NCBI GenBank assembly: GCA_000511875.1
Contig: AZIN01000001.1
Location: 1,557,332 to 1,621,331 of the forward strand
DNA from: Gammaproteobacteria bacterium MOLA455
Lineage (GTDB): Bacteria; Pseudomonadota; Gammaproteobacteria; Pseudomonadales; Porticoccaceae
DNA: 64,000 nucleotides
Reading direction: 5' to 3'
The notes under the pieces are model-generated. The model had not been told where the DNA came from. It did not search any database and was given only the letters and a program-made list of their open reading frames with translations. The translations under genes and the position numbers were made by a program. This document shows positions 33,425 through 48,230 of the stretch, piece by piece. Every line of letters starts with the position of its first letter. Position 1 is the stretch's first letter.

Positions 33425-34228
33425 CTATTGTCCTGCTGTTTCTGGTTGCTGCTGCTCAGGGGCCGTTTTGGCTTGGCGCAGAATTTCCCCTGCAAGAGCC
33501 AGATAGGCGAGCGAGCCTTTTGAGTTTCTATCGTAGGCCAAGGCAGGTAAGCCATGACTTGGGGCTTCGGCGAGACGAATATTACGCGGAATACTCACCC
33601 GATAGACACGACTGCCGAAATATTTGCGCAGCTGAGCAGACACTGCATTGGTTAGGCTGTTGCGCGGGTCATACATGGTTCGCAATATGCCCTCTATACG
33701 GAGGCTGGGATTAATCAACTTGGCGATCTGTTTGATCGTATTGTTGAGTGCCGATAGCCCCTCAAGGGCATAGTACTCGCACTGCATGGGAATAATCACG
33801 CCATCGCTGGCAACCATTGCATTCACTGTAAGCATATTTAACGAAGGCGGACAGTCGATAATTATATAGTCGTAGTTGCTGGCAACACGCTTGAGCGCGT
33901 GGCGGAGGCGGGTCTCGCGGCCAATCTCTTGCATTAACTCAACTTCTGCGGCAACCAGATCATCGTTGGAGGGTAACAGGTGAATCTTCGCCTTGGGGCA
34001 GGGAACAATCACATCTTCAATAGCGACCTTTTCCGTGAGCACATGATAGACACTGGTTTTACATTTGTGTTTATTGATGCCAACGCCCATGGTGGTATTG
34101 CCCTGGGGATCCAAATCAACCAATAGAACACGCTGCTTGTAGGCTGCAAGTGAAGCGGCCAAGTTTACGCTGGTGGTGGTCTTACCCACTCCACCTTTCT
34201 GATTTGCGATTGATATAATTTTCGGCAC
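33425..34228 (-). CDS. parA: Chromosome partitioning ATPase ParA (Soj)
   Basis: Deviant Walker ATPase, 267 residues, that segregates the ParB-parS complex. The deviant Walker A KGGVGKTTT lies within 20 residues of the start, and IIDCPPSLN is the Walker B region. I use the GTG at 34228, which has AAGG eight bases upstream and gives the family N-terminus. An ATG at 34276 abuts the rsmG stop codon and would add 16 residues. Confidence 0.95.
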   Translation of the reverse strand: MPKIISIANQKGGVGKTTTSVNLAASLAAYKQRVLLVDLDPQGNTTMGVGINKHKCKTSVYHVLTEKVAIEDVIVPCPKAKIHLLPSNDDLVAAEVELMQEIGRETRLRHALKRVASNYDYIIIDCPPSLNMLTVNAMVASDGVIIPMQCEYYALEGLSALNNTIKQIAKLINPSLRIEGILRTMYDPRNSLTNAVSAQLRKYFGSRVYRVSIPRNIRLAEAPSHGLPALAYDRNSKGSLAYLALAGEILRQAKTAPEQQQPETAGQ

Positions 34229-34276
34229 TAGACTAACCTTTATGCTGTGTATCGTTGCACTTTTTTCATTGCGCAT

Positions 34277-34942
34277 TTAGTTAAAAATAGTTGCAGGATT
34301 GCGACTGATCACTATTAGATGGCGCTCACCATCGACGCCAGGCACCTGTAATATATGTGACGCGTCGACCTTATAGTCTTTACCCACCTCACTCAACTCC
34401 GATTGCGGAAATTTGCCTTTCATTGCCAAAAACACACCTTCAGCGCTCAGTAGGTGCGCGCACTTAGCCACCATATCCGCAACCGAGGTGAAAGCGCGGC
34501 TTAATACCGCGTCATAGGCCATATCTGGTATGTGCTTCTCGACCCGAGAGTTTATTTCCTTTAGATTAGTGAGCGCTAGATCGCAGCGAGCCTGAAATAA
34601 AAATCGTGTTTTCTTACCGTTGCTGTCAAGTAAAGTAAAATTTCGGTCTGGGCACATAATGGCTAGAGGTATACCTGGCAAGCCGGCACCGGTTCCCACA
34701 TCAATTAATCGCTCGCCAACCACATAAGGCAACACCGTCAGACTATCTAGCAAGTGCAGTTTGATCATCTCTCTAGGATCGCGAATAGCGGTCAGATTGT
34801 AGGCCTTGTTCCAGGAGATTAGCAGTTGCAGGTAGGCGAGGAGCTTGTCACGCTGCTCAGCACTGTATTCCACCCCTATCTCCTGCAAACCATCTTCAAG
34901 AATAGGAGCCATATGAGCTTCAGTAGGCAACTTAAGCGGCAT
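34277..34942 (-). CDS. rsmG: 16S rRNA m7G527 methyltransferase RsmG
   Basis: SAM-dependent methyltransferase of G527 in 16S rRNA; 221 residues. Motifs include [15 protein letters not shown], the [19 protein letters not shown] site, and DAVLSRAF. The ATG at 34942 overlaps the mnmG stop by 11 bases; an alternative ATG at 34912 would give 211 residues. Neither has a strong ribosome binding site, so translational coupling to mnmG is likely. Confidence 0.94.
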
Positions 34943-36800
34943 GTTTTTTCAACTGCACAATTAACAATGAGATAGCGGCCGGTGTAACTCCGGGGATTCT
35001 ACTTGCCCTTGCCAATGTTTCAGGTGTGGCTTCGGTGAGCTTTTGCTTCACTTCATTGGACAGACCTTTGATCGACTGATAATTGAAATCGACCGGAATG
35101 CGAGTCTTCTCGTGACGCCGCAGTCGGTTGACCTCATCCTGCTGACGGCTAATATAGCCTGAATACTTGGCGTCAATTTCCACCTGCTCAGCAATTATGG
35201 GTTCGACCTGATGCTCGGGGTAGAGCGCGCCAATAATCTTATAGTCAATTTCCGGGCGCTTGAGTAACTCAAAAAGGGAATACTCATGAGAAAGTTTATT
35301 TTCAATATGGGTCGAGAGCTTTTCCGCAGTGTCACTGGCTGGTTGAACCCAAGTGTCCTTTAAACGTTGACGCTCAATCTCAATAGCTTCGCGCTTTTCA
35401 CTAAACTGCTTCCAGCGGTCATCGTTGACCAGACCCAGCTCGCGGCCCTTTTCTGTCAGGCGCATATCGGCGTTATCCTCTCGAAGGAGCAAACGATATT
35501 CCGCACGACTGGTGAACATTCTGTAGGGCTCTGTGGTGCCCATAGTGATAAGGTCGTCCACAAGAACGCCAATATAGGCCTCGTCTCGACGGGGACACCA
35601 ACTCTCGCGTCCCTGAACCTGCAGTGCAGCATTTGCTCCCGCCAATAGACCCTGTGCCGCGGCCTCTTCATAACCAGTTGTACCATTGATTTGACCCGCA
35701 AAAAACAGGCCGTTAATGGCTTTGGTTTCGAGAGAGTACTTTAGGTCTTGAGGGTTAAAATAATCGTATTCAATCGCATACCCCGGGCGGGTAATATGGG
35801 CGCTTTCAAAGCCTACTATGGAGCGTACCAAGGATAACTGCACATCAAAAGGCAGGCTCGTGGAAATACCGTTGGGATAGAGCTCGTAGGTATTTAACCC
35901 CTCGGGCTCAATAAAAATCTGATGCTGGTTTTTATCGGCAAAACGCACAACCTTATCTTCAATAGAAGGGCAGTATCTCGGGCCAACGCCATCGATCACG
36001 CCAGTGTAAAGTGGCGATCTATGCATGCCTCCTTTGATGATCTCATGTGTCTGGCTATTGGTGTGGGTTATCCAACAGCAGGTTTGTTTTGGGTGTTGCG
36101 CAACTGAGCCGAGATAGGACATCACCGGCTCTGGTTGATCACCCCACTGCTCGGGTAACTGAGTGAAATCGACGCTCCGGGCATCAATTCGCGGTGGCGT
36201 GCCAGTTTTAAGCCGCTCGACACGAAAGGGCAGAGATCGCAAACGTTGGGATAGGCTCAGTGCTGGGGGATCTCCGGCGCGACCTGCCGAATAATGTTCC
36301 ATGCCAATATGGATTTTGCCTGCAAGAAAAGTTCCTGCAGTAACAACCACTGTTTTAGCGCTAAAGGTTAAGCCCATCTGAGTTACGACACCGGTCACCC
36401 TATCACCATCTAGAATAAGATCATCGACGGCTTGCTGGAAAATACTCAGGTTCTGCTGATTTTGAAGTATATCGAGGATCGCTGCTTTGTAGAGAACTCG
36501 ATCAGCCTGAGCCCGAGTGGCACGCACGGCCGGGCCTTTGCGAGAATTCAGTACGCGAAATTGAATACCACCAAGATCCGTCGCCTTGGCCATTGCACCG
36601 CCCAGCGCGTCAATTTCTTTGACTAGGTGGGTCTTACCAATACCGCCTATAGCGGGGTTGCAGGACATCTGGCCCAAGGTTTCGATGTTGTGGGTCAACA
36701 ATAAGGTTTTGCTGCCCATGCGCGCTGCGGCTAAGCAGGCTTCAGTGCCAGCATGGCCACCGCCAACGACAATCACGTCAAAACTATCAGGGTAATTCAT
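34932..36800 (-). CDS. mnmG: tRNA uridine-5-carboxymethylaminomethyl modification enzyme MnmG
   Basis: FAD-dependent partner of MnmE in making the cmnm5U34 wobble modification; 622 residues from the ATG at 36800 (sequence [15 protein letters not shown]). The FAD-binding GGGHAGTEA motif is near residue 12. Conserved [10 protein letters not shown] and [10 protein letters not shown] segments follow. A longer in-frame ATG at 36836 would add 12 residues and is less like the family. It heads mnmG-rsmG-parA-parB. Confidence 0.96.
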
Positions 36801-37130
36801 AAAGCTTAATCGAGTGATAAAAGAATGATTGGGCATTATACGTCTGCATGATCAAACTTTAATCACTTTATTTTTTTGTGGTGAGTGTTTGTTGCTTAAG
36901 TAAGTTATTAACTAATTATTTATATATATAGTGTGTTGAAGTTATTGTTGTTGTTATTAGTAGAGCAATGCTTTGGGGGTAAGTCTATAAAGTATCTTAA
37001 AATCAGTTGGTTAGGCATTTTTTTTCATGTATGTAACTGTTAGTGAAAAAAGATTTGAACTGTATTGCCGGTTTGTAATGGTGTATTGATTTTAGTCTGT
37101 TTTTTAACATCGGGTCTTATCAGCAATTTC

Positions 37131-37139
37131 TGTGGATAG
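37131..37139 (-). promoter_or_regulatory. Near-consensus DnaA box
   Basis: TGTGGATAG is the complement of CTATCCACA, one base from the TTATCCACA consensus. It is isolated, which is weaker evidence than the cluster at 41524-41692. Confidence 0.45.
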
Positions 37140-37400
37140 AAAAAAGTTTCATCCACCTGTTTTGCACAGGTTAGCGTTGCCGCCCCAATATGCTATTGAG
37201 TTCGCCTCTTTGCAGTCAGTTTTTTAGGCTTAAATGGGGATATCCTGTGTAAATGCTGGGGGTAGGTTGGTATCTCTCTATTTGTTACCTCTTTATAAGT
37301 GTAATAGCGCAGCCAATTGTTGGTTTTTTCAATTAAGCATTGAATCGAGGTGTGAATTTCATTAAACTCCCGCGCCCTGACCAACTACTACTTTAATTTT

Positions 37401-37440
37401 CGTGAGTAGCTCAGCTGGCATAAGCGAACTTTAGTTATTT
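37401..37440 (+). other. tRNA D-arm-like sequence in the rpmH leader
   Basis: The leader of rpmH contains GAGTAGCTCAGCTGGCATAAGCG. TAGCTCAGCTGG is an exact match to the tRNA D-arm/A-box pattern. The downstream half of a tRNA (anticodon arm, T arm, acceptor complement) is missing; rpmH starts 26 bases later. It is not a functional tRNA as written. It may be a degraded tRNA or a tRNA-like leader element. Confidence 0.25.
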
Positions 37441-37455
37441 TTCGGATTAGACGTT

Positions 37456-37590
37456 ATGAAAAGAACATTTCAACCCAGCATAATTAAGCGCAAGCGTACA
37501 CATGGCTTTAGAGCTCGTATGGCAACTGTTGGCGGCCGTGCCGTTTTAAACCGTCGTCGCGCCAAAGGCCGTAAGCGTTTAGCTGCTTAA
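37456..37590 (+). CDS. rpmH: 50S ribosomal protein L34
   Basis: Ribosomal protein of 44 residues, highly basic, beginning MKRTFQPS and ending AKGRKRLAA, the universal L34 pattern with RTHGFRARM in the centre. The stop codon abuts the first possible rnpA start. It heads the rpmH-rnpA-yidD-yidC-mnmE run. Confidence 0.98.
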
Positions 37591-37608
37591 GTGCTTTCAG
37601 GGCTTACT

Positions 37609-37983
37609 ATGCCCGGAGCTGCCTTCGGTAAAAATCGACGCTTACTCAAATCCTCCGATTATACGGAGGTGTTTGATAATAATAGCGTTCGGGTGGCTCA
37701 TCCCAATCTTCTTATTCTCGCTGAACCCAATGGCACAGATACATCGCGATTGGGCTTAGTTATTGGTAAAAAAAACGTTGCCACCGCCGTTGCACGGAAT
37801 AAAATCAAGCGTGTAGTGCGTGAGACGTTCCGTTTAACTGAACTGCCTGTAGCCGTCGATCTCGTCTTTCTCGCACGAAAGGACTTGGGCAAGCTCTCCA
37901 AGACAGAATTGGCCACCCTAATTCAGCAGTCTTGGGGTAGACTAATCGCGCGTCTCAATAAAGAGATTAACCGCGATGCGTAG
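37609..37983 (+). CDS. rnpA: Ribonuclease P protein component
   Basis: Basic protein cofactor of RNase P that matures tRNA 5' ends; 124 residues from the ATG at 37609, seven bases after AGGG. A GTG at 37591, immediately after rpmH, would add six residues. The RNA-binding [14 protein letters not shown] motif is present. Its end overlaps the yidD start by eight bases. Confidence 0.95.
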
Positions 37984-38260
37984 GATGTCTGTTGGATTAA
38001 TAATAGGGCTCATTAAGGCTTACCAATATGCGATTAGTCCGCTTCTTGGGTCTAATTGCCGATTTCATCCCAGTTGCTCTGCCTATTCGGAAGAGGCATT
38101 TCGTCGGTTTGGAGTAATTAAGGGGGGTTATCTTACGTTGCTGAGAATAGTAAAATGCCAGCCTTTCCATTCAGGGGGTTACGATCCGGTCCTACCGGTA
38201 GAACATTCTGGTAAACCGGATACAAACGTCTCCGCTAACAATAATCACACAGAGTTATAA
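37976..38260 (+). CDS. yidD: Membrane protein insertion efficiency factor YidD
   Basis: Small membrane-associated protein of 94 residues with the three family cysteines, in [13 protein letters not shown] and in [13 protein letters not shown]. It assists YidC-dependent insertion. It overlaps rnpA and is followed five bases later by yidC. Confidence 0.94.
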
Positions 38261-38265
38261 ATCGA

Positions 38266-39966
38266 ATGGATTGGAAGAAAAGTCTAAATATCGCCGCAAT
38301 TGGTTTCGTTGCTTGGTTGCTCATTATCGAGTGGAGCAATTTTCAAGATAATGTTGCGAGTCAGATTCCGCAGCAAGAGACAGAATTAACCGTTCCACAG
38401 CCTTCTCAGCTACCGGTTCTCGAAACACAGCAGCTCAGCCAGCTGTCAAATGAGCTGCCATCTCTTGATCCAGTCCCTGTAGCGGTTGTTGAGAATCAGG
38501 TGGATACGCGACTTGTAACTGTTACCACCGATACAATTGAAGTGACTATCGACACGCTGGGTGGCGATATAGTGCAAGTGAAGCTACTTAAACACCTCAC
38601 CAAGATGGCTGAAGATGGCGGCGAACCGTTTACCCTGTTAACTCGCTCTTCGAAAAATGAATATATTGCCCAGAGTGGTCTGATTGGTCAAAACGGTACT
38701 GATACCAGAGAAGGCCGTGGAGTCTACGCTACTTCCGCCAGTCAATTCAGTATCGGTGAAAATCAATCAACCCTAAACGTTGACCTCACGCTGAATCAAA
38801 ATGGTACTAGATTGGTCAAGCGTTTCTCTTTTAGTCGCTCTGATTATGTTATTGGTGTTAGCTATCTGATTAATAACAGTAGCTATGAGCCCTGGGAGGC
38901 AACGTTTTACGGCCAGATTAAGCGCGATTCTCATGAGCCTCTGGTTGAATCCAGTGGTGGAATACAGCCCTATTTGGGAGCCGCATTGAGAGAGGCGGAT
39001 AAGAATTTCGCTAAATACGATTTTGGTGATATACAAGATGGCTCTATTAAGAGCGCTATACAAGGTGGCTGGGTGGCTATGGTTCAGCATTACTTTGTCA
39101 GTGCTTGGATTCCGCCTCGGGACCAGTACAACAATTTCAGCTTGCGTAAGCTCTCAGGTCAAGATGTCTACTTAATGGGGTTTACTGGCGAGAAGATTCA
39201 GGTTGCACCTGGAGCGTACGGTGAATATAACGCTCAGTTTTACGTAGGCCCCAAAGATCAGGTTGCCCTCGAAGAGCTTGCCGAGTATCTAGATCTAACG
39301 GTGGATTACGGGTTCCTGTGGATGTTGGCCAAACCAATATTTGCGGCGATGAAGTTTATACATTCGGTTGTTGGCAACTGGGGTTGGTCAATTATTATAC
39401 TGACCATTGGCATTAAGATTCTTCTGTACCCACTGTCAGCGGCCAGCTTGCGGTCTATGGCAAAAATGCGCAGTCTGCAGCCTAAAATGGAGCGCCTCAA
39501 AGAGACCTATGGTGAAGATCGCCAGAAAATGTCTCAGGAGTTAATGGGCCTGTATAAGAAAGAGAAGGTGAATCCTGCTGGCGGTTGTTTCCCTATGCTG
39601 TTGCAGATGCCCGTCTTTTTGGCTCTCTATTGGGTGCTCTTGGAGAGTGTTGAGATTCGCCACTCCCCTTGGATCTTTTGGATAGATGATCTTTCAGCTA
39701 AGGATCCCTTCTTTATCCTGCCTCTGATAATGGGCGCCAGCATGTTGTTGATGCAGAAGTTGCAGCCAATGCCAACGGATCCTACGCAGGCCATGGTAAT
39801 GAAAATTATGCCGATCGCCTTCACCTTCTTCTTTATGATATTCCCGTCGGGACTGGTTCTGTACTGGACTGTTAACAACCTGCTATCCATGTTTCAACAA
39901 TGGTATGTAAACCGCCAGCTGGCCAACGCTTCTGCTGCAGCTTCTAGTAAAGCGGTTAAAAAATAG
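38266..39966 (+). CDS. yidC: Membrane protein insertase YidC
   Basis: Inserts and folds inner membrane proteins, alone or with Sec; 566 residues. It has an N-terminal anchor helix (about 7-23), a large periplasmic beta domain, and a C-terminal core of five helices. The core includes a cytoplasmic loop with MYKKEKVNPAGGC-type sequence (LYKKEKVNPAGGC) and a positively charged groove arginine in the first core helix region. The AtpE and AtpB proteins encoded to the left are classical YidC substrates. Confidence 0.96.
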   Translation: MDWKKSLNIAAIGFVAWLLIIEWSNFQDNVASQIPQQETELTVPQPSQLPVLETQQLSQLSNELPSLDPVPVAVVENQVDTRLVTVTTDTIEVTIDTLGGDIVQVKLLKHLTKMAEDGGEPFTLLTRSSKNEYIAQSGLIGQNGTDTREGRGVYATSASQFSIGENQSTLNVDLTLNQNGTRLVKRFSFSRSDYVIGVSYLINNSSYEPWEATFYGQIKRDSHEPLVESSGGIQPYLGAALREADKNFAKYDFGDIQDGSIKSAIQGGWVAMVQHYFVSAWIPPRDQYNNFSLRKLSGQDVYLMGFTGEKIQVAPGAYGEYNAQFYVGPKDQVALEELAEYLDLTVDYGFLWMLAKPIFAAMKFIHSVVGNWGWSIIILTIGIKILLYPLSAASLRSMAKMRSLQPKMERLKETYGEDRQKMSQELMGLYKKEKVNPAGGCFPMLLQMPVFLALYWVLLESVEIRHSPWIFWIDDLSAKDPFFILPLIMGASMLLMQKLQPMPTDPTQAMVMKIMPIAFTFFFMIFPSGLVLYWTVNNLLSMFQQWYVNRQLANASAAASSKAVKK

Positions 39967-40026
39967 CCGTTTGTAATGCTGATTAATTGATGGTTATTTT
40001 ATAAAACAGTGACGTTATAAAATTAG

Positions 40027-40049
40027 AGGCCCTTTTGAGGGCCTTTTTT
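40027..40049 (+). terminator. Intrinsic terminator after yidC
   Basis: The sequence AGGCCC, a 6-base loop, GGGCCT and a T run form a compact terminator, about 60 bases past the yidC stop codon and 28 bases before mnmE. It should limit readthrough, so mnmE may rely on partial readthrough or its own promoter. Confidence 0.85.
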
Positions 40050-40076
40050 ATCAGCGGCTTTTTTTGAGGTGCACTT

Positions 40077-41441
40077 GTGCAAAACAGTTTAGATAGCATT
40101 GTCGCCATAGCGACCGCGCCAGGCCGAGGTGGCGTCGGGATTGTGCGGGTATCTGGGCCGGATATACAGGGGTTTACCAGTGCCATAATCGGAAAGCCAC
40201 TATTGCCGCGACAGGCAACTTTCGCATCGTTTAACGGTGCCGATGGCGAAGTGATCGATGAAGGTGTGGCGATCTATTTTCCCGCACCAGCGTCTTTCAC
40301 AGGCGAGCATGTTCTTGAGTTGCAGGGCCATGGCGGTCCGGTAATTTTGGATGCGCTGGTACAGCGCTGCGTACAGCTGGGTGCTAGAACTGCGAGACCA
40401 GGAGAGTTTAGCGAGCGCGCATTTCTCAATGATAAGTTGGATCTAGCTCAGGCTGAGGCCATTGCCGATTTAATCGATGCGACGTCTATTCAGGCGGCAC
40501 GCTGTGCGGTGCGCTCATTGCAGGGAGACTTTTCACAGCTGGTGAACAGCCTTGTTGATCGTTTGATTAGTATTCGTCTCTACGTCGAGGCGGCAATTGA
40601 TTTTCCTGAAGAAGAGATCGACTTTCTCGCCGATGAGCGCCTGTCTGAAAATCTGCAACAGTTAATGGGAGATCTAAAGGACACTCTGAGTAAGGCGCAG
40701 CAGGGCTCGCTACTTCGTGATGGAATGACAGTAGTTTTGGCAGGAAAGCCCAATGCTGGTAAATCAAGCTTGTTAAATGCTCTTGCCGGCCGCGATGCTG
40801 CGATTGTTACCGCTAAGGCTGGTACCACCCGCGATGTTCTTCGTGAAACCATTACCCTAGACGGTATGCCACTGCATATAGTGGATACTGCAGGCTTGCG
40901 GGAAAGTGATGATGAGGTTGAGCTTGAAGGCATTAGGCGTGCTTGGTTGGAGATTGAGCAAGCTGATCAATTGTTATTTTTGGTTGATGCTAATGAGTCG
41001 GATAACCCAGACCTAACGGCAATCTGGCCTGAGTACTTTGCCCGTTTTGGCGATGCCAAGCAGCCTATAATCCTAGTGTTAAATAAGATTGATGAGTCTG
41101 GTCATCGGGCAGGAAGGTTGACTGAGCAATGCAACGGCTTTGCGATCTCTGCAAAACATAAAACGGGCATAGATCAACTAGTGGCTTTTTTGCAGTCGAG
41201 TATGGGTTTTGATGAGCGTAGCGAGGGGGTGTTCTCTGCCCGTCGCCGTCATCTGGCAGCTCTAGAAAAGGCCTTGGAGCTGGTGAACATCGGTCAGCGG
41301 CAGTTGAGCGGCAATGGGGCTGGAGAATTGCTCGCTGAAGATCTTCGTTTAGCGCAAGTCCAGCTCTCCGAAATTACTGGGGTATTCACCTCCGATGACC
41401 TGCTGGGACATATATTTTCGTCGTTTTGTATTGGAAAGTGA
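40077..41441 (+). CDS. mnmE: tRNA modification GTPase MnmE
   Basis: GTPase partner of MnmG in wobble uridine modification; 454 residues. An N-terminal tetrahydrofolate-binding domain is followed by helices and an inserted G domain with G1 GKPNAGKS at 223-230 and DTAG at 270-273. The C-terminal catalytic-cysteine motif CIGK is at 451-454. It starts with GTG behind GAGG. Its own partner mnmG lies on the other side of the rpmH block, on the other strand. Confidence 0.96.
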
Positions 41442-41523
41442 CTTGTTCCTTTGCTGCAGTCACCTTCCCGATTTCTTCGCCTCGTTAAATTCTTAATTGA
41501 CCTGGACATCGGGCCTTACACAC

Positions 41524-41556
41524 TGGTTTTATACTGGTTATATACAGGTTATCCAC
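41524..41556 (+). repeat. Three tandem 11-base iterons in oriC
   Basis: TGGTTTTATAC, TGGTTATATAC and AGGTTATCCAC follow one another with no spacer. The third contains the start of the exact DnaA box. Eleven-base spacing places each unit on about the same face of the helix, as expected for cooperative initiator binding. Further TGGTT words occur at 41563 and 41589, with an inverted copy at 41575-41579. Confidence 0.75.
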
Positions 41557-41557
41557 A
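41549..41557 (+). promoter_or_regulatory. DnaA box R1 (exact TTATCCACA)
   Basis: Exact consensus DnaA box at the right end of the iteron array. Confidence 0.85.
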
Positions 41558-41596
41558 GAAGTTGGTTAAATATTAACCAGAATATAGTTGGTTCGC

Positions 41597-41605
41597 TGTG
41601 AATAA
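41597..41605 (-). promoter_or_regulatory. DnaA box R2 (TTATTCACA)
   Basis: One mismatch to TTATCCACA, fitting TTATNCACA, in reverse orientation, 39 bases past R1. Confidence 0.75.
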
Positions 41606-41683
41606 AAATAAGTTTGATATTATTTAAGTAGCTGAAATATATAGGTTTGATTTTTTGTTGTGAAAATTGTCGCATTTTTTCAG

Positions 41684-41692
41684 TGTGGATAA
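41684..41692 (-). promoter_or_regulatory. DnaA box R3 (exact TTATCCACA, reverse)
   Basis: Exact consensus in reverse orientation (TGTGGATAA on the plus strand), between two AT-rich stretches and about 160 bases before dnaA. It could also serve dnaA autoregulation. Confidence 0.85.
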
Positions 41693-41850
41693 ATTAAATT
41701 TAGGCGTATAGAATCCAGAGCTGTTAAAACCTGCGGTCAAAGCACGTCTATTGGTGCTGTAAGCTTGAGTAAAAAAATAAAAATTTGCATTCGCTGGCGG
41801 CAGGCGACTCGGTTTGTTGTCGATTGCGGTAGTCTGGATATTTTAAGGCT

Positions 41851-43449
41851 ATGTTGCCAGATTGTTCTGCGGTAAATTTGGGGTTCCATTTGAATCAAGA
41901 AGTTAAAATAGTTGGCTTAAATTCGACTCCTGGGCATGGCGCGCTGAGCGTGGCGGGTGGTGATCAGTTGATCGATGCAAGTTCGCTCGAAGTAGTTTGG
42001 GCTGGGTGCACCAAGCAGCTGAGTGATGAATTGCCAGCTCAACAGTTTAATACCTGGATTCGACCTCTGCGGGCACAGCTGTTTGCTGGCGACTCAGATG
42101 ACGCAGGAACCTCTCAGAGAGTGCAGTTGATTGCTCCCAACCGGTTTATTGAAGACTGGGTTCAAAATAAGTTTCTGGCCCGCATTGAGCAATTGTTTGC
42201 CCAGTTTGACGCCGGACATTGCGCTGTGGCTGTGGTGGCCCAGGCAGAAATGGCGCCAACGTTTAAAGCGGATGCTCCTGGTAGGTCTAACGGTGTCCGT
42301 TCTGCCTTAGTGCCCTCCGATCAAATCATCGAGCAACAACCGCCATCAGGTTTTGTGCCTCAGGAAACCCCGGTTATTCAGCGTATCCAGGCCCCCGCTA
42401 TTATTACATCGGCAGCCGAACACAGTCTTAAAAGTAATCTTAATAGCGCGTTTACCTTCGACAGTTTTGTTGAGGGAAAGTCCAATCAGCTGGCCCTTGC
42501 TGCCGCCCAGCAGGTTGCAGAAAACCCTGGTGGTTCCTACAACCCGCTGTTTATTTATGGTGGTGTCGGGCTGGGTAAGACGCACCTTATGCACGCCGTG
42601 GGTAATGCCCTGCGCGTGCGCAAGCCCGATGCGAAAATTGTTTATCTGCACTCTGAGCGGTTTGTTGCTGACATGGTCAAGGCCTTGCAGCTCAAGGCGA
42701 TCGATGAGTTTAAGCAGTTTTATCGCTCGGTGGATGCCTTGCTTATCGATGATATTCAGTTTTTTGCTGGCAAAGAGCGCAGTCAGGAAGAGTTCTTTCA
42801 CACCTATAATGCGCTTCTTGAGCGCGGTCAGCAGATGATTCTGACCTGTGATCGCTACCCCAAAGAGATCAGTGGCGTTGAAGAGCGCCTCAAGTCTCGC
42901 TTCGGCTGGGGATTAACGGTTGCTGTTGAGCCGCCTGAGCTTGAGACTCGTGTTGCGATATTGATCAACAAGGCAGAGCAGGCTGGTATGGATCTGTCCC
43001 GAGATGCGGCATTCTTTATCGCCCAGCGTATCCGTTCCAACGTCCGGGAGCTGGAGGGCGCCCTTAAGCGGGTTATGGCTCACGCCCAGTTTAGTGGTCG
43101 GGTTATAGATATAGATTTAATTCGAGAATCCTTGAAAGACTTGTTGGCGCTGCAGGATAAGCTAGTTACCATAGACAATATTCAGAGAGTCGTAGCGGAC
43201 TACTACAAGCTAAAAATGTCCGATTTGCTCTCCAAGCGCCGCAGCCGCTCAGTGGCTCGGCCGCGGCAGATTGCCATGGCATTAGCTAAGGATTTGACCA
43301 ACTACAGCTTGCCGGAAATTGGTGAGTCCTTTGGCGGTAGAGACCATACTACGGTGCTCCACGCCTGCCGTAAGGTGAAAGAGTTAGAGGGCATAGATCG
43401 GGATGTGGAGCGGGATTTAAAGAATCTGTATCGCACGCTTTCAAATTAA
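41851..43449 (+). CDS. dnaA: Chromosomal replication initiator DnaA
   Basis: AAA+ initiator, 532 residues from the ATG at 41851. Domain I begins near residue 50 (the WAGC...[17 protein letters not shown] segment). Walker A GGVGLGKT is at 237-244, LIDDIQFF is Walker B, and domain IV ends with the [13 protein letters not shown] signature. The roughly 45 residues before domain I are not typical; an internal TTG at 41968 after a GGTGGTGA sequence would give a more usual N-terminus. The start is therefore uncertain, but the gene is not. Confidence 0.96.
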
Positions 43450-43560
43450 GAAGCCCGCAAAGGTAATGCTTGTAGGTAGATTTATTAAATAGATATGTAA
43501 CAGACTTTTAATAGTCTTTTATCAGACATCGTAAATTAGTGCTGGAGATTAATCGATACC

Positions 43561-44661
43561 ATGAAATTTAGCCTTTCCCGTGAAGCCTTGCTTAAACCCT
43601 TGCAGCTAGTTGTTGGTGTTGTAGAGAGACGTCAGACGCTGCCTATTCTGTCGAATGTTTTGTTGACCTTGGATGGCTCACGCCTAGCAGTAACCGGTAC
43701 TGATCTTGAGGTTGAGATTATTGGTCATACTGATGTTGTTAGTGCAGATGAGGCGGGTGAGGTCACTGTTTCGGCGCGTAAGCTGTTAGATATTTGTCGT
43801 TCGTTGCCTGAAGGCGCGAATATCAAGTTTTCCAGTAGTGACGGTAAGGCTCAGGTAGTCAGTGGGCGCAGTCGTTTCACTCTGGCGACGTTGCCGGCCA
43901 ACGAGTTCCCCTCTGTGGATAACGGTGAAAATAACATTCAGTTTGACATAGAGGGTGTCATTTTAAAAAATCTTATCGACGCCACCTCTTTTGCGATGGC
44001 TCAGCAGGATGTGCGCTATTACCTCAACGGTATGTTGTGGGAAGTAAGTGCCAACAAGCTCCGCGCGGTAGCCACAGACGGCCATCGCATGGCGCTCTGT
44101 GATGCTGAGTGCAATACTGAGGCTGCCGAGTTAATCAAGGCGATACTGCCGCGTAAAGGTGTTATTGAGCTGTCTCGCTTAGTTGCTGAGGAGGGTACTG
44201 TTCGGGTTGCTATGGGTTCAAACCATATTCGAGTAGACGGCAGTGATTACTGTTTTACCTCTAAGTTAGTTGATGGTGCTTATCCGGACTATGATCGGGT
44301 GTTGCCCAAAGGGGGTGATAAGCTGGTCGAGGGCAATCGCGCTGAGCTTAAGCAGGCCTTTGGCCGTACAGCGATTCTCTCCAACGAGAAGTACCGTGGA
44401 GTGAGGATTCTGCTGTCTAGTGGCGCAATCAAAATGGTTGCCAATAATCCAGAGCAGGAAGAGGCCGAAGAGGAAGTTGGCGTTGATTATGCTGGCGATG
44501 AGTTAGAGATTGGCTTCAATGTCAGTTATTTGCTCGACGTGCTCAATGTCTTAAAGGGGGATGCCGTTCGACTGACCCTGTCTGATTCCAGCAGCAGCGC
44601 CCTAGTGGAAGATGCAGCTGACGGATCTGCCGTCTACGTTGTTATGCCTATGCGACTGTAG
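43561..44661 (+). CDS. dnaN: DNA polymerase III beta sliding clamp
   Basis: Ring-forming processivity clamp of 366 residues with three repeated clamp domains. It starts MKFSLSREALLKPLQ and ends with the VVMPMRL tail, both typical of the family. It follows dnaA by 111 bases and may have its own promoter in the gap as well as readthrough. Confidence 0.97.
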   Translation: MKFSLSREALLKPLQLVVGVVERRQTLPILSNVLLTLDGSRLAVTGTDLEVEIIGHTDVVSADEAGEVTVSARKLLDICRSLPEGANIKFSSSDGKAQVVSGRSRFTLATLPANEFPSVDNGENNIQFDIEGVILKNLIDATSFAMAQQDVRYYLNGMLWEVSANKLRAVATDGHRMALCDAECNTEAAELIKAILPRKGVIELSRLVAEEGTVRVAMGSNHIRVDGSDYCFTSKLVDGAYPDYDRVLPKGGDKLVEGNRAELKQAFGRTAILSNEKYRGVRILLSSGAIKMVANNPEQEEAEEEVGVDYAGDELEIGFNVSYLLDVLNVLKGDAVRLTLSDSSSSALVEDAADGSAVYVVMPMRL

Positions 44662-44706
44662 AGAGGCATTGGTTTACCTCTCTATAGTAGCCGGCGCTGC
44701 TAACTA

Positions 44707-48230
<3,524 letters not shown>

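Follow-up and report, generated by a model that had tools for sequence, protein, structure and literature searches.

A conserved, 11-bp-phased DnaA-box array between mnmE and dnaA in the SAR92 clade: a likely dnaA control region apart from the probable replication origin

Does the cluster of DnaA boxes between mnmE and dnaA in Gammaproteobacteria bacterium MOLA455 mark the origin of replication (oriC), or does it belong to the dnaA gene next to it? The cluster lies in a 64,000-nucleotide stretch of the genome (contig AZIN01000001.1, positions 1,557,332 to 1,621,331 of the forward strand; the window), and a first, sequence-only reading described it as an ordered set of iterons and DnaA boxes, with autonomous replication tests among its proposed checks. 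We consider it likely that the segment 41524–41714 comprises the dnaA promoter and its upstream control elements, that oriC lies ~4.6 kb upstream, in the gap between mnmG and rpmH, and that the two were parted by an ancestral inversion. The comparison draws on 49 relatives of the same genus, which, judging by the named relatives, is the SAR92/HTCC2207 clade of the Porticoccaceae. The mnmE–dnaA locus was usable in 45 of these, giving 46 genomes with that of the window.

The elements listed between mnmE and dnaA are all present, with the letters and coordinates described. Three abutting iterons, TGGTTTTATAC (41524–41534), TGGTTATATAC (41535–41545) and AGGTTATCCAC (41546–41556), run into a perfect DnaA box, TTATCCACA. 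Two reverse DnaA boxes follow, of which the right-hand one is perfect, whereas the left-hand one (hereafter the second box) is off by one base; in relatives, the latter is mostly TTATCAACA and in some it is more degenerate. The window contains 18 boxes that differ from TTATCCACA by no more than one base, and the three in the mnmE–dnaA gap (all within 150 bp) make up its strongest cluster and the densest one in 454 kb of the chromosome. Two boxes of the array are perfect, of a total of 11 perfect boxes across the 454 kb. The mnmE–dnaA gaps of the 46 genomes contain 128 boxes with no more than one mismatch, compared to ~7 (maximum 13) in shuffled gaps, which served as the control. The array thus has the cluster of DnaA boxes that an oriC should have, and it includes an AT-rich stretch at 41600–41680 (A+T content of 78% at 41600–41699).

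In all 45 relatives, mnmE and dnaA are adjacent and have the array between them. Mean identity to the commonest base in aligned columns is 0.84 in units 1 and 2, 0.93 in the strong box that follows them, 0.75 in the dyad (the perfect inverted repeat downstream), 0.85 in the second box and 0.98 in the right-hand box, compared to 0.47–0.57 in linkers and flanks. The boxes are spaced by 47–48 and 86–88 bp in nearly all members of the genus. Because the DnaA proteins of the genus have diverged to ~74% identity, this conservation reflects constraint and not mere kinship. The array is not due to chance; it is conserved at the same place and in the same phase across the genus.

The 11-base phasing is real. 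Across the genus, at steps of 11 and 22 bp upstream from the strong box, the 9-mers agree with TTATCCACA at a mean of 6.28 and 4.93 of 9 positions, and these offsets stand out from all others (0.3–4.3 of 9). The same steps reach lower values, 4.0 and 2.7 of 9, in families outside the genus, and the array is thus at its most developed in the SAR92 genus. The sequence-only reading had interpreted the phasing as a cooperative DnaA filament site and had proposed an alignment of relatives as a check. The 46 genomes share one strong site and two degenerate ones, with their number and phase conserved, which is what such a filament site would be expected to display. The low-affinity DnaA arrays of E. 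coli also have an 11-bp phase (9-mers 2 bp apart), and the phase is therefore no departure from the E. coli description. The repeated word TGGTT had been put forward as a separate, lineage-specific element, and this idea had to be dropped. The 9-mers at the 11-bp steps resemble the DnaA box, so the sequence that is kept is a degraded DnaA box and not TGGTT. The TGGTT words are local to the closest relatives: the copy at 41589–41593 is present in the window but is not conserved in relatives, and unit 2 in most of them is TGTATAYACAC.

The right-hand box (TGTGGATAA) contains the hexamer TGGATA, the predicted −35 element of the dnaA promoter, and a TAnnnT hexamer follows exactly 17 bp on in 44 of the 46 genomes. 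The same box/−10 spacing is found in 12 of 18 loci sampled from Pseudomonadales families, in 29 of 30 named genomes that have the mnmE–dnaA order and in 42 of 50 that have the rpmH–dnaA order (7 more have 18 bp); these ~100 loci come from samples that partly overlap and are related, so that the counts are not independent. Any other spacing yields 0–5 matches, and none stands out except the 18 bp in 7 of the 50. Judging by these spacings, it appears to be typical of the order Pseudomonadales that a DnaA box also serves as the −35 element of dnaA. DnaA boxes upstream of dnaA thus overlap its predicted core promoter. Autoregulation by DnaA is well documented in E. coli, B. subtilis and V. harveyi (PMC8203912).

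We prefer to interpret the dyad as a predicted Fis site. Its inner 15-mer (41564–41578) matches the Fis consensus, GNTYAAWWWTTRANC, at 13 of 13 specified positions, and the best Fis match is at the same place (gap index 123–126) in 43 of 46 genomes. The letters change from GGTTA..TAACC to GATCA..TGATC or mixtures of the two in relatives, with the Fis-type pattern kept. To the right of the dyad, most relatives carry a putative IHF-type site: the IHF consensus (YAANNNNTTGATW; WATCAANNNNTTR) is fully matched at one position in 21 of 46, and the window has 7 of 9 there. The fis gene and four genes of the IHF/HU family are present.

The array is probably not the replication origin. A cumulative GC-skew minimum lying elsewhere had been named in advance as evidence against an origin at this site, and this is what was found. 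Skew was computed in three genomes, those of the window and of two relatives, and in none of them does the minimum coincide with the array. In the window genome it is at 35706, 5.9 kb upstream of the array (4.8 and 5.9 kb upstream in the two relatives), and in all three it lies 0.3–1.4 kb from the centre of the mnmG–rpmH gap. The keto (G+T versus A+C) minimum is 3.7 kb left of this centre. Furthermore, yidC and mnmE, which are located between the two gaps, carry a leading-strand third-codon skew in the three genomes (log-likelihood ratio of 2.7–4.7 for leading in each), which argues that forks do not start at the array. The third-codon GC skew of the coding strand of mnmG (34932–36836) is −0.054 (mean of 38 genomes) versus 0.13 to 0.21 for yidC, mnmE and dnaA, and this low value pulls the skew minimum to the left.

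The mnmG–rpmH gap, ~4.6 kb from the array, is probably the true oriC, as its sequence elements suggest. A core consisting of TTATTAG, 13 bp, a DnaA box, 18 bp and an IHF-like site is present in 40 of 41 mnmG–rpmH gaps of the genus. It occurs in 0 of 46 mnmE–dnaA gaps, none of which scores above shuffles. Likewise, no TT[A/G]TT DNA unwinding element (DUE) at a fixed distance from an R1-type box was found at the array in the 46 gaps with a model that was built from the mnmG–rpmH gap and covers the E. coli-like DUE type only. The TT[A/G]TT motif class is that of the E. coli DUE (PMC10380432). Since the core profile was derived from the mnmG–rpmH gaps of the genus, its high scores there arise by construction; the informative results are its absence from the dnaA gap of the same genus and its scores in other families. 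In other genera and families, the profile exceeds z = 3 in 11 of 13 mnmG gaps, and every time its direction is away from mnmG; the remaining two gaps are very short (85 and 159 bp), and here the core is found beside dnaA instead. Some lineages, including many Pseudomonas, have the core unit in both the mnmG and the dnaA gap. A search of 117 genomes of the order with the exact core gave 10 matches, six beside mnmG or dnaA and four in contexts that are unrelated or unplaced; taken alone, the exact pattern is therefore overly strict and lacks full specificity. DnaA boxes are enriched in the mnmG–rpmH gaps as well (72 versus 8 expected).

This gap, and not the array, has the order and spacing of E. 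coli oriC, in which a TT[A/G]TT run ending in TTATTAG is followed by 13 bp, an R1-type box, 18 bp and an IHF site, and which is likewise next to mnmG and points away from it. The E. coli letters were confirmed against 5374 E. coli genomes, and the IHF site of E. coli oriC is GATCAACAACCTG (PMC4285127). Unlike E. coli oriC, the SAR92 gap is flanked by rpmH and not by mioC, and its R1 box is often TGGGGATAA or TGTTAGTAA and is degenerate in the window.

The gene order suggests how the two sites came to adjoin different genes. In most Pseudomonadales, mnmG is followed by mnmE…rpmH in reverse and dnaA in forward orientation, and in Porticoccaceae the block rpmH…mnmE is turned round. Relative to mnmG, the origin core points the same way as in families where the block is not inverted, and the control region has remained next to dnaA; hence only the gene block was inverted. 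An inversion that carried the origin along was ruled out by the unchanged direction of the core. The rpmH-rnpA-yidD-yidC-mnmE block would have been inverted in an ancestor of the group.

According to the explanation that we favour, DnaA would nucleate at the strong box (41549–41557) and spread to the two degenerate sites in 11-bp steps, and it would also occupy the boxes at 41597 and 41684. Because the latter covers the −35 hexamer, bound DnaA would exclude RNA polymerase and thereby hold down dnaA expression (autorepression). DNA bending between the boxes by Fis, joined in most relatives by IHF, may adjust the timing of complex formation. Replication would start in the mnmG–rpmH gap, from a site with the layout of E. 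coli oriC. The dnaA promoter region of E. coli (dnaAp1/p2) resembles the array in that Fis acts there and DnaA keeps its own expression in check (PMC8203912, PMC5835720), but SAR92 has one predicted promoter, with a DnaA box inside the −35 element and a fixed 17-bp spacer, and a perfect phased array ~150 bp upstream with a Fis dyad, all in fixed order. The rpmH–dnaA gap of P. putida has a homologous position relative to dnaA, and Pseudomonas loci share the box/−35 overlap at 17 bp. In Pseudomonas the gap lies between divergent rpmH and dnaA, often with a second origin-like DUE-box unit, whereas the SAR92 gap lies between mnmE and dnaA and has no such unit. P. putida carries 12 DnaA boxes upstream of dnaA, with a function stated as undetermined (PMC8203912).

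Several points weigh against the favoured explanation. TGGATA matches only 4 of 6 positions of the −35 consensus, and the array has more elements than a simple promoter would require. In P. putida, an increase in DnaA failed to repress the dnaA promoter of that species (Ingmer and Atlung 1992, as reported in PMC8203912), and autorepression in Pseudomonadales should therefore not be taken for granted. Gene direction switches at the mnmG–rpmH gap, and skew also tracks gene direction; skew alone is therefore no proof. Finally, in the window the two perfect boxes are in the array, whereas the predicted oriC has an R1-type box that is degenerate.

The same contrast of strong boxes in the array and weaker ones in the mnmG–rpmH gap, together with the box enrichment of both gaps and the fixed order of DnaA, Fis and IHF-type sites in the array, would suit a bipartite origin, in which DnaA filaments on the two gaps loop across the 4.6 kb and open the DNA at the mnmG side. 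In H. pylori, oriC1 and oriC2 flank dnaA and act together in this manner. Known bipartite origins, however, span about one gene, and here five genes intervene; conservation of the right-hand box is already accounted for by the promoter overlap, and we regard a bipartite origin as unlikely. It is very unlikely that the array is the main origin, of the type found in the rpmH–dnaA gap of Pseudomonas, with the mnmG-side core as a relic. The array does adjoin dnaA, has two perfect boxes and an AT-rich stretch, and reported Pseudomonas origins, which are assigned to the dnaA region, were reportedly cloned from there by Yee and Smith in 1990. Nevertheless, the GC-skew minimum, the third-codon skew and the lack of the DUE-R1-IHF unwinding core led us to reject the array as main origin, and a core kept in 40 of 41 genomes is no relic.

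A site that reloads or inactivates DnaA, like DARS or datA, would fit the presence of IHF and Fis sites alongside DnaA boxes. The core of datA comprises boxes 2, 3 and 7 and an IHF site. DARS2 of E. coli consists of DnaA boxes I–III with IHF and Fis sites, and its clusters of low-affinity boxes overlap Fis sites (PMC10380432); elements of these kinds also make up the array, including low-affinity boxes near a predicted Fis site. The likeness goes by kinds of parts only, since the order here is box, Fis site, opposite box, IHF site and a box on the −35 element, and the E. coli sites are not located at the dnaA promoter, where the array is; we regard such a role as very unlikely. A broader and tentative idea, which we think doubtful in full, is that Pseudomonadales have two ancient DnaA-controlled sites ~5 kb apart, at mnmG and dnaA, that the unwinding core has been retained at one of them or at both, depending on the lineage, and that in SAR92 initiation and dnaA control are cleanly parted, with the array still aiding initiation at a distance. 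Ogasawara and Yoshikawa are said to have described, around 1992, P. putida DnaA-box regions beside dnaA and beside gidA (mnmG); in that case the idea of two sites would not in itself be new. In SAR92 the box cluster is naturally separated from the origin core, so that the two functions can be tested apart. If the explanation by dnaA control and a separate oriC is true, default annotation that places oriC at dnaA is ~4.6 kb off in this group.

Table 1. Coordinates of the array, the dnaA promoter, the predicted oriC and the flanking genes in the window
Feature	Position	Strand	Remarks
11-bp-phased DnaA array	41524–41557	+	two degenerate units (41524–41545), then perfect DnaA box (41549–41557)
Dyad TGGTTAAATATTAACCA (TGGTTAA-ATA-TTAACCA)	41563–41579		predicted Fis site
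Second DnaA box TTATTCACA	41597–41605	−	one mismatch; 48 bp from first box
Predicted IHF site position	41625–41637	−	degenerate in window (7/9)
Perfect DnaA box TTATCCACA (right-hand)	41684–41692	−	inner TGGATA (41686–41691, + strand) is predicted dnaA −35 hexamer
Predicted −10 hexamer TAGAAT	41709–41714	+	dnaA promoter
mnmG–rpmH intergenic region	36837–37455		predicted true oriC
TTATTGTTGTTGTTATTAG, TT[A/G]TT run	36942–36960	+	predicted DUE
R1-type DnaA box	36974–36982	−	13 bp after TTATTAG; TTACCCCCA in window, degenerate; TGTGGATAA/TGGGGATAA in relatives
IHF-like site AATCAGTTGGTTA	37001–37013	+	18 bp after R1-type box
Further DnaA box CTATCCACA	37131–37139	−	in predicted oriC
mnmE	40077–41441	+	upstream neighbour of array
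dnaA	41851–43449	+	true start codon uncertain; relatives align from ~41989

Some smaller features of the locus are worth recording. The stop codon of mnmE opens a short inverted repeat, TGACY...RGTCA (41439–41465), with a loop of ~13 bases, which almost every member of the genus retains; as no T run follows, it does not qualify as a standard terminator. No Rfam match to an RNA element was found in 34000–46000. In two close relatives (L158/L039, L040) the mnmE–dnaA gap is ~680 bp long, having been lengthened downstream of the array. In several genomes (loci L190–L235), an additional 2–5 kb of DNA separates mnmG from mnmE, next to the predicted origin core. In many Pseudomonas and their relatives (L189–L236), a TT-rich run followed after ~13 bp by TGTGGATAR is present in both the mnmG–mnmE and the rpmH–dnaA gap, ~5 kb or more apart.
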